Both the position numbers and the translations under genes were made by a program. Positions 13,645 through 18,804 of a stretch of 40,394 bases of DNA are shown piece after piece. The stretch is from positions 1-40,394 of the forward strand of contig JAGQZY010000018.1 of assembly GCA_020435205.1 (NCBI GenBank). The letters are read 5' to 3'. The first letter of the stretch is position 1. Every line of letters starts with the position of its first letter. A model generated the notes under the pieces. It was not told the origin of the DNA. It saw nothing but the letters and a program-made list of their open reading frames with translations, and made no database searches. This stretch comes from Bdellovibrionales bacterium (lineage in GTDB: Bacteria > Bdellovibrionota > Bdellovibrionia > Bdellovibrionales > JAGQZY01).

Positions 13645-14829
13645 CTAGCTCTGTTTAATGATCGCGCAATAGAGGTTTTCGATTTGATCCACCGTTGATT
13701 GTGGTCCGCAGTGTTCTTCTACAAGTTGCCGCGCTTTGAGGCGAATTTTTTCTTGCAGCTCGGGAGAGCGAAGAATCTCAACGGTTCTTTGAATCAAGCC
13801 TTCATTGTCTTCGCAAAGTCCACAGTGAACCATATCCTCAGCAGGAAGGCCTTCCGCGCCCTCACTGGTTGTAATCACGGGGACCCCAAAAAGCATGGAC
13901 TCTAAGATTTTAATCTTCATTCCGCTACCGCGACTAGGGGCGTAGAGCATGGCGGAGGCTTGATTAAAATAAGGTTGAATATCAGGCACATTTTCATAAA
14001 TTTCTACACCGGGAAGATCGAGGTAGTTTTTTAATGCTGATTTTGCAGACCAACCAACAATTCGACATCGGGCTTCGGGGACTTGCTCTTTGATTTGAGG
14101 CCAAAGGTGCTCGAGCAGTCGAATGGCGGCGCTCACTGAGGGATACCACCCCATGTTTCCAATCAAAGTGAGAATGGGTTTTTCGGTTTGCCTTTGTTCG
14201 GAGGGGATAAAAGGGTAAAGGCTAGAATCCATGCCCACAGGTACAGTTTTGACGATTTTCTTTTTTCCCCAAGATTGAATATAGGGTTCAAGTCGAGGCG
14301 AGCAGGTGCGAACATAGGGGTAGCGGCTGAGGAGTTTTTTTTCAGTATGAAACCACCTTTTGTAAAGGAGGTTTTGCTTCCAACCTCGGGCTTTAACATA
14401 TTGGAGATCAATGGTTTGTAGATGATGCACATTGATCAAAGCTTTATGAGACCAGGGGAGTGCAGTCCATCCGGCCCAGGTCTGCTCAATGTGAATAATA
14501 TCAAAGGAGTCGGGCCGAACTTTCTTCAATGCCGCCATAAAATCAGCAGAAAATTTATTGCGGTGGGGATAGAGAAGGTGATTCAACTTATCTTTGTAAC
14601 TACTTGACTTTGCAAAAGGAAAAATCTGCATATCATATTCATTTCCAGAAAACTGCTCTTTTGCTTTTTGAATGTCTTTTTCCAATCCACTGGCGACCAA
14701 AACTGTGACTTTATGCTCTCGCTTAAGAAGCTCCTGGTAAAGAACATGAAACCAGCGACTGGCGGCATTGCCAAAGGGCAAGGGTGGCTCGAGGAGGATA
14801 AGGAGGACGCGCAGCGGATAAGGTGTCAT
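13645..14829 (-). CDS. GT4-family glycosyltransferase
   Basis: A 394-aa GT-B-fold retaining glycosyltransferase. The N-terminal acceptor domain begins LRVLLILLEPPLPFG and includes NAASRW. The C-terminal nucleotide-sugar domain carries the family motif as KIKILESMLFGVPVITT (about residues 305-325), in which the Glu contacts the sugar nucleotide. It presumably adds one sugar to a lipid-linked glycan on the cytoplasmic side of the membrane. It is the first gene of the minus-strand trio with the epimerase and flippase. No Shine-Dalgarno sequence precedes the ATG at 14829, but a strong promoter has its -10 box 6 nt upstream, so the message is probably leaderless. Donor and acceptor are unknown. 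Confidence 0.85.
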   Translation of the reverse strand: MTPYPLRVLLILLEPPLPFGNAASRWFHVLYQELLKREHKVTVLVASGLEKDIQKAKEQFSGNEYDMQIFPFAKSSSYKDKLNHLLYPHRNKFSADFMAALKKVRPDSFDIIHIEQTWAGWTALPWSHKALINVHHLQTIDLQYVKARGWKQNLLYKRWFHTEKKLLSRYPYVRTCSPRLEPYIQSWGKKKIVKTVPVGMDSSLYPFIPSEQRQTEKPILTLIGNMGWYPSVSAAIRLLEHLWPQIKEQVPEARCRIVGWSAKSALKNYLDLPGVEIYENVPDIQPYFNQASAMLYAPSRGSGMKIKILESMLFGVPVITTSEGAEGLPAEDMVHCGLCEDNEGLIQRTVEILRSPELQEKIRLKARQLVEEHCGPQSTVDQIENLYCAIIKQS

Positions 14830-14906: not shown

Positions 14907-16034
14907 GTGAAAGTCGCTTTCAATGCTCGCACTTTGTCCGCCCCACAGTTACGCGGTTGGAGTCGTTACACAAGTAATCTAGTCAGAGAACTCACTCAAC
15001 TTGGGGTCAAAGTTTATTTGTTTTCGGATCGTCCTCTGAATGAAGATATGCTTAAGGGTTGTGATAGTCAGAACCTCGTCTTAGTCAGTGAGCGAGGTTA
15101 TTTATACTTGGACTGGGAACAGAGAATTTTGCCCCAGTTGTGTCAGACGTACCCAATCGATATTCTTCACTGTCCGATCAACTACGGCCTGCCCTGGCGA
15201 AAGAACTGTCCACAGGTCCTAACGCTACATGACGCTATTGAAAAGGTTTTTTATGAAAAAGAAAAATCTATATTGGAAAAATGGAGTGTTCCTCATTTGT
15301 ACGTCCGCGGTTTACATAAGCTTGCCCAGAGAGCGAGTGATCTAGTGATCACCGTGAGTGAGCATGCTAAAAATGATTTGGTTAACCAATACCATATCCA
15401 CTCTGAGAAAATTAAAGTGATCTATGAAGCGGCCGACCCAAACTTTTGCGAAGGCAGTGTTTATCCTTTGGAGGAGTTGCAGAAAAAATTTTCTATACAA
15501 GGAACCTATTTGTTTTATGTGGGAGGTTTAGAAAAGAGGAAAAATTTGAAAGTGCTCATCGACGCTTTTGCGGCATTGAAAGAACCTCGGCCTCAGTTGG
15601 TGGTGGCCGGTGGCGGTCAATCTATGGAGGAGGTGAAAAGGTGGGTTTTAAACCAAGGCCTTGAAAGTCAAGTGCGCCTGTTGGGCTGGGTCGAAGATTC
15701 AGATCTGCCAAGTCTTTATTATCACAGTCGCGCTTTTGTTTATCCTAGTCTTTATGAAGGTTTTGGTTTGCAACTGGTCGAAGCCATGACCATGGGGACA
15801 GCTGTTCTTGCATCCAATCGAACCAGTCTTCCTGAAGTGCTGGCCAACCCTGAGGCAACCTTTAACCCAGAATCGGCTTCTGAGTTGACTCATCTTTTGC
15901 GCAGAGTGCTAGATGACGCCTCTTTTTTACAAAGTCTTCGTAAACATTCCTCAGAGCGACGGCAGGCTTTTCATTGGCGAAAGACGGCTGAACAAACATT
16001 GGATGCCTATTCCAAGCTGTTGTTGATGCCATAA
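14907..16034 (+). CDS. GT4-family glycosyltransferase
   Basis: A 375-aa GT-B glycosyltransferase of family 4 (WbaZ/mannosyltransferase-like branch by general look). The N-terminus VAFNARTL and RGWSRYTSNLVREL is typical of enzymes that bind a lipid-linked acceptor. The linker has FYVGGLEKRKNLKVLIDAF, and the donor site is YEGFGLQLVEAMTMG (about residues 275-292), the E-x7-E motif. It starts at GTG 14907 with no ribosome binding site and a -10 box 6 nt before it. It is divergent from the other GT4 gene and the first plus-strand gene of the glycan region. It is followed after 90 bp by the PhyH gene. Donor and acceptor are unknown. Confidence 0.87.
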   Translation: MKVAFNARTLSAPQLRGWSRYTSNLVRELTQLGVKVYLFSDRPLNEDMLKGCDSQNLVLVSERGYLYLDWEQRILPQLCQTYPIDILHCPINYGLPWRKNCPQVLTLHDAIEKVFYEKEKSILEKWSVPHLYVRGLHKLAQRASDLVITVSEHAKNDLVNQYHIHSEKIKVIYEAADPNFCEGSVYPLEELQKKFSIQGTYLFYVGGLEKRKNLKVLIDAFAALKEPRPQLVVAGGGQSMEEVKRWVLNQGLESQVRLLGWVEDSDLPSLYYHSRAFVYPSLYEGFGLQLVEAMTMGTAVLASNRTSLPEVLANPEATFNPESASELTHLLRRVLDDASFLQSLRKHSSERRQAFHWRKTAEQTLDAYSKLLLMP

Positions 16035-16124: not shown

Positions 16125-16910
16125 GTGATTCTCAGCAAAAGGCAAATTCACGATTTTTTAGTCCAGGGCTATTTGCATCTGCCTGGTTTTTTTACCGAAC
16201 ATCAAAGAGCTTGGTCCTTTTTAAAAGAGAATGGATACATGGATTGCGCTGAAACATGGCTTGATGTTTCTCAAGGTATTGATCCCAAGTTTTTAGAGTT
16301 TGAAAAACCCATTGCGCCACTCGCTCAACAAATTTTAAAGTCAGATGCCGTGCTGACCACAGTGCAAGTCTCCAATATTCGGTCCCAGTCACCAGCGTGG
16401 AATAAGTTTCATATTGACGGAGAAAATCATGTGATGGTTCGTCAAGAATCATTTGATGGAATGCCCTGGTTTAAAGTTATCGTTGGGATTTTTTTAACCC
16501 CAACGCGAAAGAACACCGGTGAGCTTTTTATTTGTCCAGGTGGCCATTGGCAGGTGCAGAATTTTTTTAAAAAAAATGCCCATCGATTTTGGCATCAAGG
16601 CCAATTTGTCGCAAACTCTCGAGAAGTCTACCAAGAGATGGTGCAATCCCTTTCCATTGAATTTGTACCCCTTTATGCGGATCCTGGGGATGTGGTCATG
16701 TTCCATTGTCTTGTGCCTCACACGGTGGGCGCTAATCAGGATCAAGATAGGCCTGTGACTTACTATCGTTATGGTATGTACGAACACAAAGGCGAGAAAG
16801 CCTTAACGAATATGTGGCAAGGCTTTGAGGGGCTTGAACAGGCCTTACCTTTACTTGATGAGAACGAACTTTTACACTCTCGGGTCGATCGCCAAGGGGT
16901 TTTGGTCTGA
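16125..16910 (+). CDS. PhyH-family Fe(II)/2-oxoglutarate dioxygenase
   Basis: A 261-aa protein of the phytanoyl-CoA dioxygenase superfamily, non-haem iron enzymes that hydroxylate or otherwise oxidise aliphatic carbons. The iron-binding HxD is FHIDGE (His96, Asp98). The distal ligand is likely His199 in VPHTVG, and Arg209 ten residues later would bind 2-oxoglutarate. All three positions appear intact, so the enzyme should be active. The start is GTG 16125 with GGGGAG 3 nt upstream. The gene's TGA overlaps the ATG of the next small gene, so it is the first gene of a four-gene cassette with a radical SAM protein and an SDR. Next to glycosyltransferases this suggests oxidative tailoring of a surface-glycan substituent, but the substrate is unknown. 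Confidence 0.8.
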   Translation: MILSKRQIHDFLVQGYLHLPGFFTEHQRAWSFLKENGYMDCAETWLDVSQGIDPKFLEFEKPIAPLAQQILKSDAVLTTVQVSNIRSQSPAWNKFHIDGENHVMVRQESFDGMPWFKVIVGIFLTPTRKNTGELFICPGGHWQVQNFFKKNAHRFWHQGQFVANSREVYQEMVQSLSIEFVPLYADPGDVVMFHCLVPHTVGANQDQDRPVTYYRYGMYEHKGEKALTNMWQGFEGLEQALPLLDENELLHSRVDRQGVLV

Positions 16911-17149
16911 TGGAAGTTTGTTTTGAAAGTTTAGAAAACTTTTCAGATATTAAAAAACTTTTGAAGGAAGTCGCAGAGCTTCGCCAACAGGGGGGAGTGC
17001 TCAAGCTACGCTGGCCCCACTTGGAAACGGGCCCGTCTTATGTTGACCGACAAAATAATTTGCATAGAACTTTTTTGTTCGTATTCAATCAGATTCAGAT
17101 TGAGGCTAAACAAAGTGGCAAATTTGAGGTGATCCTTGAAAACCTTTAA
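16910..17149 (+). CDS. unknown 79-aa protein within the PhyH/radical SAM cassette
   Basis: A small soluble protein with no signal peptide. A helical N-terminal half (LENFSDIKKLLKEVAELRQQ) is followed by a beta-like half with a Trp and several aromatics. The start codon overlaps the PhyH stop (TGATG), and its last 14 bases overlap the start of the radical SAM gene, so it is tightly coupled to both. I recognise no family. It could be a partner or scaffold protein for one of the two oxidative enzymes, but nothing in the sequence proves this. Its conserved placement would be the best evidence that it is real. Confidence 0.65.
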   Translation: MEVCFESLENFSDIKKLLKEVAELRQQGGVLKLRWPHLETGPSYVDRQNNLHRTFLFVFNQIQIEAKQSGKFEVILENL

Positions 17150-18233
17150 CTTGCCCCTCTACCATTGGCATTTTGAAGTAAGCAGTAAATGTGCCTTGCA
17201 GTGTCCGCGATGTCCGCGCACGGAAAGAAAAGGCGACTATAAGGTGACAGAGTTATCTTTAGATTTTATTAAAAATCTCACTGAGGATCCACTTTTTCGC
17301 AATCAGGCGTTAAAACTGACTTTTTGTGGAGGGCAAGGGGATCCCATATACAACAGCCAGTTTTTGCAGATTATCGAACATTTGAAAATGGAATTTCCTC
17401 AAATACTGATCACCATAGTGACCAATGGGTCTCATCGCAAAACTGACTGGTGGCGCCGATTGGGGGGATTGCTGACTGCCGGGGATGATATTACTTTTTC
17501 TTTAGATGGGTGGGATCAAGCTTCCAATGAAAAGTACCGAGTGGGGAGTGATTGGCAAAGCATTCTTGCTGCGATTGAAGTCCTTAGGGGACGAGAGGCG
17601 ATGTTGATTTGGAATGCTATCTATTTTCGTTTTAATCAAAATGAAATTGAAAGGATGAGTCGCTTGGCAGAGGACTTAGGCTTTGATGGTTTTCGCCTCA
17701 CTAAAAGTCACCTTTTTGGCAGCCATGGTCATCAACAGTATATGGATCCCGAGTTGGGTTATGATCCTTTGGAGCCAGATGAAACACTGGTTTCTCAGTG
17801 GGGAAAAACAGAGAAGTCAAAAATTTGGTTTACTAAAGGGAGTGAACGCTTTCAAAATTTTAACAAAAAATACGCTTCCTTTAATGCCATGAAAAAAGAA
17901 CTTACGGATGGCCTCAGGGCTAAGCAGAGTGCTTACCGGTTACTTCCGAATTGTTTGATAGGTTTTCGTGGATGTTATGTCGATGCTGAAGGCTATTTTT
18001 ATCCTTGTAGTTGGGTGAGCCATCCCCAATCGGATAAAGCCAGACATTTTTTCAAGAATGAGTTTTTCCCAGTTCATCAGAAGGAACTGAACTTGCACCA
18101 TCATAGCCTGAGTGAAGTCTTAGACATCAAGGCCTGGGATGAATTGACTTCCACGTGGTTTCCCCAGGGCCCTGAGCCTTTTATCGAGTGCCAGAGAAAA
18201 TGTCATAAAGAGGTGTTTCCCGATGTCCCTTGA
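17136..18233 (+). CDS. radical SAM protein with C-terminal SPASM-like cysteines
   Basis: A 365-aa radical S-adenosylmethionine enzyme. The 4Fe-4S motif CxxxCxxC is at the N-terminus (Cys19, Cys23, Cys26). The barrel continues with FCGGQGDP (the GGE-like SAM contact) and LTIVTNGS/SLDGWD-type strands. A second cysteine set near the C-terminus, CLIGFRGC, YPCSW and CQRKC, suggests an auxiliary cluster domain of SPASM or twitch type. The start is TTG 17136 with GAGGTGA 3 nt upstream, inside the end of the preceding gene. Members of this group act on peptides, sugars or other small molecules; no precursor peptide is obvious nearby. Its 3' end overlaps the SDR-like gene by 11 bp, completing a tightly packed cassette. 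Confidence 0.85.
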   Translation: MKTFNLPLYHWHFEVSSKCALQCPRCPRTERKGDYKVTELSLDFIKNLTEDPLFRNQALKLTFCGGQGDPIYNSQFLQIIEHLKMEFPQILITIVTNGSHRKTDWWRRLGGLLTAGDDITFSLDGWDQASNEKYRVGSDWQSILAAIEVLRGREAMLIWNAIYFRFNQNEIERMSRLAEDLGFDGFRLTKSHLFGSHGHQQYMDPELGYDPLEPDETLVSQWGKTEKSKIWFTKGSERFQNFNKKYASFNAMKKELTDGLRAKQSAYRLLPNCLIGFRGCYVDAEGYFYPCSWVSHPQSDKARHFFKNEFFPVHQKELNLHHHSLSEVLDIKAWDELTSTWFPQGPEPFIECQRKCHKEVFPDVP

Positions 18234-18780
18234 GCAGAGTTCTATTTTTATGACAGGTGGCTCAAAGGGCTTTAGTCGACTTTTGTGGGACTGTCTTCCT
18301 AGGCAAAAGAAATCTTTTTGTCGTGCAACGGGATACGACCTGAAGCGGGATGAAGATATTGTCAAAATGGCTCAGGAAAGCCTCAATTGCGATATTTTTA
18401 TAAACTACACCCACGTGGATTTTCAACAGACGGAACTTCTCTATCAAGTTTTTGCCAATTGGAAACAGAAGGGGAAAAAGGGCCTAATAGTTAATATTGG
18501 CTCCTTTGCCACTTATGAAGTCAAACCAGAAGTTAAACTCTGGGTGGCCTCAAAATATAGCTTAGATGTCGCTAACCAGCAGTGTTGCAAGGAGGCCATC
18601 GGTGAAAAACTTCCTTTTAGGGTTTGCTTGCTCAAGTTAGGTTTTCTTTCGGCCCCAGAAAACCAGGATAAACCTCACTGGGATGGGCGGGGGCATAGCC
18701 CTGAACAAATCATAGAAGCTTTGCAGCTTGTTTTTCAGAGCTCTCAAGCCATCGACGAGATAGTGATTCGTCCGTCTTAA
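18223..18780 (+). CDS. degenerate short-chain dehydrogenase-like protein
   Basis: A 185-aa protein, shorter than the usual 240-260 aa classical SDR. The cofactor loop TGGSKGFSR (residues 11-19) is recognisable as TGxxxGxG-like, with the last Gly replaced. A NYTHVD segment takes the place of NNAG. Ser94 (NIGSFA) matches the catalytic Ser, and Lys111 matches the catalytic Lys, but the Tyr of YxxxK is Trp107. The central acidic and helix regions are short. It may bind a nucleotide without the usual dehydrogenase chemistry. ATG 18223 has AGAGGTG about 8 nt upstream and overlaps the radical SAM gene by 11 bp. A terminator follows directly, so this is the last gene of the cassette. Confidence 0.7.
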   Translation: MSLEQSSIFMTGGSKGFSRLLWDCLPRQKKSFCRATGYDLKRDEDIVKMAQESLNCDIFINYTHVDFQQTELLYQVFANWKQKGKKGLIVNIGSFATYEVKPEVKLWVASKYSLDVANQQCCKEAIGEKLPFRVCLLKLGFLSAPENQDKPHWDGRGHSPEQIIEALQLVFQSSQAIDEIVIRPS

Positions 18781-18804
18781 CTGTCTCGATTTGAGACAGT
18801 TTTC
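18779..18804 (+). terminator. rho-independent terminator after the oxidative cassette
   Basis: AACTGTCTC-GATTT-GAGACAGTT, a 9-bp perfect stem beginning at the stop codon of the SDR-like gene. It is followed by a short TTTCT tail, so the U tract is modest. Confidence 0.65.

Follow-up and report, generated by a model that had tools for sequence, protein, structure and literature searches.

A radical SAM–SDR gene pair in a four-gene Bdellovibrionales operon and its relatives in uncultured T4-like phages

What do four overlapping genes for putative oxidative enzymes do beside the glycosyltransferase and flippase genes of a Bdellovibrionales bacterium, and do they work together? The stretch of DNA that we analysed, hereafter the window, is 40,394 nucleotides long. 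An earlier note on its sequence proposed that the four genes together make or attach an unusual group on a surface glycan or lipid. The features that bear on this proposal are the following.

13645-14829, minus strand: second GT4 glycosyltransferase gene, beside the operon
14907..16034, plus strand: GT4 glycosyltransferase, 375 aa (PF00534, 8e-35)
16125..16910, plus strand: PhyH, GTG start, 261 aa
16910..17149, plus strand: small ORF (p79), ATG start, 79 aa, overlapping PhyH by 1 bp
17136..18233, plus strand: radical SAM protein (rSAM), TTG start, 365 aa, overlapping p79 by 14 bp
18223..18780, plus strand: SDR-like protein, ATG start, 185 aa, overlapping rSAM by 11 bp
~18779-18801, plus strand: hairpin at the operon end, 9-bp stem, 5-nt loop, -12.2 kcal/mol

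All four ORFs were found at these coordinates, and their successive overlaps of 1, 14 and 11 bp bear out the chain of PhyH, 79-aa, radical SAM and SDR-like genes with 1–14 bp overlaps described previously. Direct reading also reveals Shine-Dalgarno-like sequences 5' of p79, rSAM and SDR. The single terminator said to close the set corresponds to the 9-bp hairpin, which is followed by a short T tail and is not listed by a terminator consensus scan. The location beside GT4 and flippase genes was likewise read correctly, as the two GT4 genes, an epimerase gene and a flippase gene (PF01943) all adjoin the operon. The GT4 gene at 14907..16034 lies on the same strand as PhyH and ends 90 bp 5' of it, and is possibly on one transcript with the operon. 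The GC content of the cassette (0.40–0.44, against 0.45) does not clearly signal recent transfer.

The first and third genes encode members of families known for difficult C–H chemistry, and that part of the proposal stands. Both the PhyH and the radical SAM protein score above their Pfam cut-offs. PhyH matches PF05721 (3e-7; 31.4 bits against a cut-off of 22) and retains a complete metal triad, with HxD at residues 96–98 (H96, D98) and a distal His199; as judged from these residues, it is of the Fe(II)/2-oxoglutarate oxygenase type. It is the only PhyH in its genome. Across 140 genomes of the order no relative reached 1e-10, searches of phages and viruses gave no match, and none of the other rSAM–SDR loci seen contains a PhyH gene; on Streptomyces plasmids there are partial matches only, about 30% identical. 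We therefore read PhyH as a local addition to the operon, apparently confined to the window.

The rSAM protein matches PF04055 (1.4e-10; 42.1 bits against a cut-off of 29.5) and carries the CxxxCxxC motif as Cys19/23/26. In an alignment of 27 homologues these three residues are invariant, as are C273-x17-C291 and C352-x3-C356, and because the four C-terminal cysteines are invariant we predict one auxiliary cluster, which suggests a twitch-type protein like BtrN. Of the earlier description, radical SAM/SPASM-like, the first half is borne out; the SPASM profile PF13186 stays below its cut-off (E 0.34; 11.7 bits against 21.5), and there are only four C-terminal cysteines. The predicted structure (pLDDT 90.6) has BlsE as its best PDB fold match (8e-12, 17% identity, TM-score about 0.5), with further matches to viperins, SkfB, SuiB, anSME, DesII and MoaA; these matches are compatible with sugar or nucleotide chemistry in the modelled protein and are not diagnostic, being generic across the rSAM superfamily and having high rmsd. 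NCBIfam matches are weak and include peptide maturases. Elsewhere in the collection, rSAM relatives at L202:6821-7778 and L203:897-1884 are each split into two overlapping ORFs (the core and a C-terminal Cys part); these may be frameshifted or two-part proteins, and 231-aa frames in genomes G003 and G004 may be similar.

Whether the four genes belong together can be judged from their occurrence in other genomes. A search of the family, order and phylum yielded eight full-length rSAM orthologue loci in seven of the phylum's 369 genomes, a sporadic distribution: the window, L058 (genome G099), L057 (G071), L060 (G091), L061 (G093), L065 (G053), and both L198 and L199 (G304). In the rSAM tree the bacterial orthologues fall on one side (97/76), and the window pairs with G099 as its sister (100/99). 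In seven of the eight loci rSAM has a member of the same SDR family either adjacent to it or within about 1.4 kb. The two genes overlap in the window, L058, L057 and L061, are spaced by 0.4 kb in L060 and about 1.4 kb in L065, and are convergent in L198; in L199 there is no SDR near rSAM. The gene set is more than a chance arrangement, because rSAM, SDR and p79 orthologues occur elsewhere. The conserved core of the operon, however, is the rSAM–SDR pair, and conservation does not extend to all four genes together: PhyH is unique to the window and p79 occurs in three of the eight loci, as against seven for rSAM–SDR.

The glycan setting fares no better as a general feature. A glycosyltransferase gene lies directly upstream in only two of the eight loci, the window (GT4) and L057 (GT2). 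The surroundings of L058, L060, L061, L065, L198 and L199 are unrelated genes or rSAM islands, and the GT-like genes of L198 lie about 2 kb off on the opposite strand, past an S1-like gene. These six bacterial loci, together with all the T4-like phage loci considered below, amount to the outcome that the earlier note had named as refuting it, namely that most relatives carry the set apart from glycan genes. Because most relatives' loci are so placed, a glycan role is possible in the window but not general.

Separately from these orthologue loci, an island at L013 and L014 (G001:C15:636000-671000) contains numerous rSAM/SPASM-like genes of diverse kinds, distributed over the two strands, together with a mini-SDR, an SGNH-like ORF and a GT-like ORF, and adjoins integrase-like and excisionase-like ORFs (all named by eye); its gene types resemble gene sets of aquatic phages. 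A second recurrent mini-SDR neighbourhood occurs at L059:9285-17322 and L062:910-6674, near oxygenase-like, rSAM, desaturase-like and GNAT-like ORFs (again by eye), with an ACP-like ORF in L059; Pfam returned nothing for the one ORF of this neighbourhood that was searched.

Turning to the SDR-like partner, its match to adh_short (0.002) is below cut-off, but the assignment is clear with a profile of its family, which matches solved SDRs with E-values down to 3e-16. Compared with the classical TGxxxGxG, its nucleotide-binding motif TGGSKGF retains the first Gly residues, with the last position variable. The classical YxxxK reads WVASK in the window (Trp107; residues 107–111, 18541–18555). G099, the sister of the window, likewise has Trp at the catalytic Tyr position, and G091 and G093 have Met there, whereas sequences read by eye retain YxxxK in all phage SDR partners viewed and in some bacterial ones. 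Because the catalytic Tyr is Trp or Met, an ordinary ketoreductase step is doubtful on sequence grounds in these four genomes. The window and G099, the two sisters with p79, have thus both lost the Tyr, and their SDR may have become a binding partner instead of a full reductase.

The small protein p79 matches nothing in Pfam, NCBIfam or PHROGs, and as a lone query over 148 genomes it gives weak, scattered matches, of which that in G099 is real judging by its position. There, the rSAM ORF is 496 aa long and its C-terminal part matches p79 with a score of 68 (z = 9.2; none of 3000 shuffles reached the score). In G071, a 94-aa ORF between the GT2 gene and rSAM has a weak likeness to p79 (z = 3.6; shuffle fraction 0.006), and its position lends support to calling it p79-like. 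A p79 or p79-like sequence thus accompanies rSAM in three of the eight loci, once as a C-terminal fusion, so that conservation beside the other genes, on which the earlier note had staked its proposal, is limited in extent but convincing where the fusion occurs. The C-terminal fusion shows p79 to be a genuine protein, a small accessory domain tied physically to rSAM in a relative.

A small protein beside or fused to an rSAM recalls PqqD–PqqE, and it could be argued that the rSAM modifies a peptide in RiPP-type maturation, with p79 as an RRE/PqqD-like recognition domain or as the precursor. Peptide maturases are among the weak NCBIfam matches, and SkfB and SuiB among the fold matches. However, the p79 model is a fairly confident beta-alpha-beta-alpha-beta fold (pLDDT 82) with no PDB match at E <= 0.001, and it does not follow the RRE/PqqD winged-helix order of strands and then helices. 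Since p79 is modelled as a folded domain and is fused to rSAM in G099, both the precursor and RRE identities are disfavoured; a precursor peptide is unlikely, in line with the earlier reading that none is present. In addition, the four C-terminal cysteines fit one auxiliary cluster whereas typical SPASM peptide enzymes have two, and SDR pairing is uncommon for RiPPs. We consider peptide maturation quite improbable.

Another view is that there is no common pathway, unrelated small enzymes having accreted in a variable glycan region so that only rSAM and SDR belong together. The absence of PhyH elsewhere, the restricted occurrence of p79 and the sporadic distribution across the phylum would all fit. 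The tight gene overlaps in the window and the p79–rSAM fusion in G099, a real functional link, speak against it, and we regard accretion as unlikely.

The rSAM–SDR pair also extends beyond bacteria. When the window rSAM was used as a lone query it found nothing in genome contigs; homologues were reached with an alignment of the orthologues. An alignment scan of viral contigs gave 80 loci with 32–41% identity, and dozens of contigs from uncultured T4-like phages carry full-length homologues (36–41% identity). The best viral predicted-structure match is an rSAM of an uncultured Caudovirales (5e-17). The viral loci that were read are T4-like, with an SbcC/gp46-like gene before the site and a baseplate-hub gene after it. 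In the closer viral group, 37 of the 42 loci with upstream room have an SDR gene that runs into the beginning of rSAM, with overlaps of 1, 4 or 11 bp. The contigs are partly redundant (near-copies), so that the effective number is lower, at 32 distinct rSAMs and 29 distinct SDRs. Among the more distant viral loci such an overlap occurs in only 1 of 32. In the tree, bacterial and viral sequences join in a single clade (100/99), and at the level of these sequences their rSAMs share ancestry. Many of the T4-like contigs also encode a protein of 147–180 aa after the rSAM genes (for example, L106:7082-7621, L125:8259-8729 and L138:8220-8663) with a shared motif, F-x-x-K-x-x-x-D-T-x-x; the one tested had no Pfam match. 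A 214-aa ORF overlapping a phage rSAM (L118:7077-7721) has an HTD motif that recalls 2OG oxygenases, but we set it aside as an oxygenase candidate, this HxD-like motif being the sole basis and Pfam giving no match.

These phage copies bear on a further alternative, in which the product of the rSAM, taken as similar to viperin, BlsE or MoaA, is a modified nucleotide (an antiviral, a cofactor or a DNA-base precursor) on which the SDR then acts. The PDB sequence-profile matches of rSAM are mainly viperin-like (best 1.7e-7), viperins acting on nucleotides and not sugars; BlsE, viperin and MoaA are among the fold matches; and the phage copies adjoin SbcC/gp46-like genes, an occurrence that nucleotide chemistry would explain. 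Nonetheless, the region in common is mostly the general rSAM core, viperin is not known to have a twitch cluster, and the gp46-side position, which several different rSAM sets occupy, may be a mere insertion hot spot. Nucleotide chemistry is a competing reading that we think unlikely to be right.

Our preferred reading, to which we give slightly less than an even chance, is that the core is a two-enzyme rSAM–SDR module whose sugar-like substrate undergoes oxidation or deoxygenation, and that PhyH was added locally. The substrate would resemble a sugar or cyclitol and might be linked to a nucleotide, and a 5'-deoxyadenosyl radical would abstract hydrogen from one of its C–H groups beside a hydroxyl. 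Two outcomes could follow: a ketone, if the auxiliary cluster accepts the electron (the BtrN route), or a deoxy-ketone, if water is lost (the AprD4 route). The SDR would bind NAD(P)H and either reduce the ketone or assist, in the manner of AprD3, while p79 would hold the substrate or a partner in place. In this genome only, PhyH could add a hydroxyl, and the neighbouring GT4 could then use the product in building a surface glycan. What survives of the original proposal is thus a functional unit of two enzymes, supported by the sequence comparisons, and a glycan group is one possible use only.

More broadly, we suggest, as a possibility that leans towards doubtful, that Bdellovibrionota-type bacteria share with uncultured T4-like aquatic phages an undescribed rSAM–SDR module whose product is a new kind of modified nucleotide or sugar; one bacterial lineage would have gained p79 as a dedicated small subunit, separate or fused, and the window PhyH. 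An rSAM with an SDR partner is carried by dozens of uncultured T4-like phage contigs, and a bacterial copy with extra subunits offers a tractable handle on the reaction; if such a product is made, part of the unexplained rSAM load in aquatic phages would be accounted for.

A literature search for the gene combination found no described pathway among the papers covered, and the earlier note likewise knew of none with this gene order. Among 50,697 GenBank phages, no full-length rSAM homologue was found; the matches are only the distant rSAMs of Campylobacter phages such as CP220 and CPt10 (PMC2853527) and Pelagibacter phage Mosig, with 27–29% identity over the core only and no SDR–rSAM pair annotated in the stretches read. 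These distant relatives in isolated phages sit with sugar- and amino-transfer genes, NDP-sugar-transferase folds in CP220 and an L-Ara4N-type aminotransferase and a carbamoyltransferase in Mosig, and because of such neighbours a sugar-like substrate stays plausible. AprD4/AprD3, the radical SAM diol dehydratase and NADPH reductase of apramycin biosynthesis, is a precedent for an rSAM plus a reductase (PMC5461906), a likeness of logic; unlike that system, the window has lost the SDR catalytic Tyr and contains no aminoglycoside cluster. BlsE, an rSAM decarboxylase whose substrate, cytosylglucuronic acid, is a nucleoside-like sugar acid (PMC3715490), resembles the window rSAM as its best fold match, whereas the low identity and TM-score given above set the window rSAM apart, and BlsE is not known to pair with an SDR. 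Finally, the twitch rSAM BtrN, 2-deoxy-scyllo-inosamine dehydrogenase, has operon partners unlike those of the window rSAM and is absent from the top PDB sequence and fold matches listed for it, but the two have in common an N-terminal CxxxCxxC, four C-terminal cysteines and a similar domain plan, and BtrN uses four Cys ligands on its auxiliary cluster in oxidising an aminocyclitol alcohol (PMC9012708).
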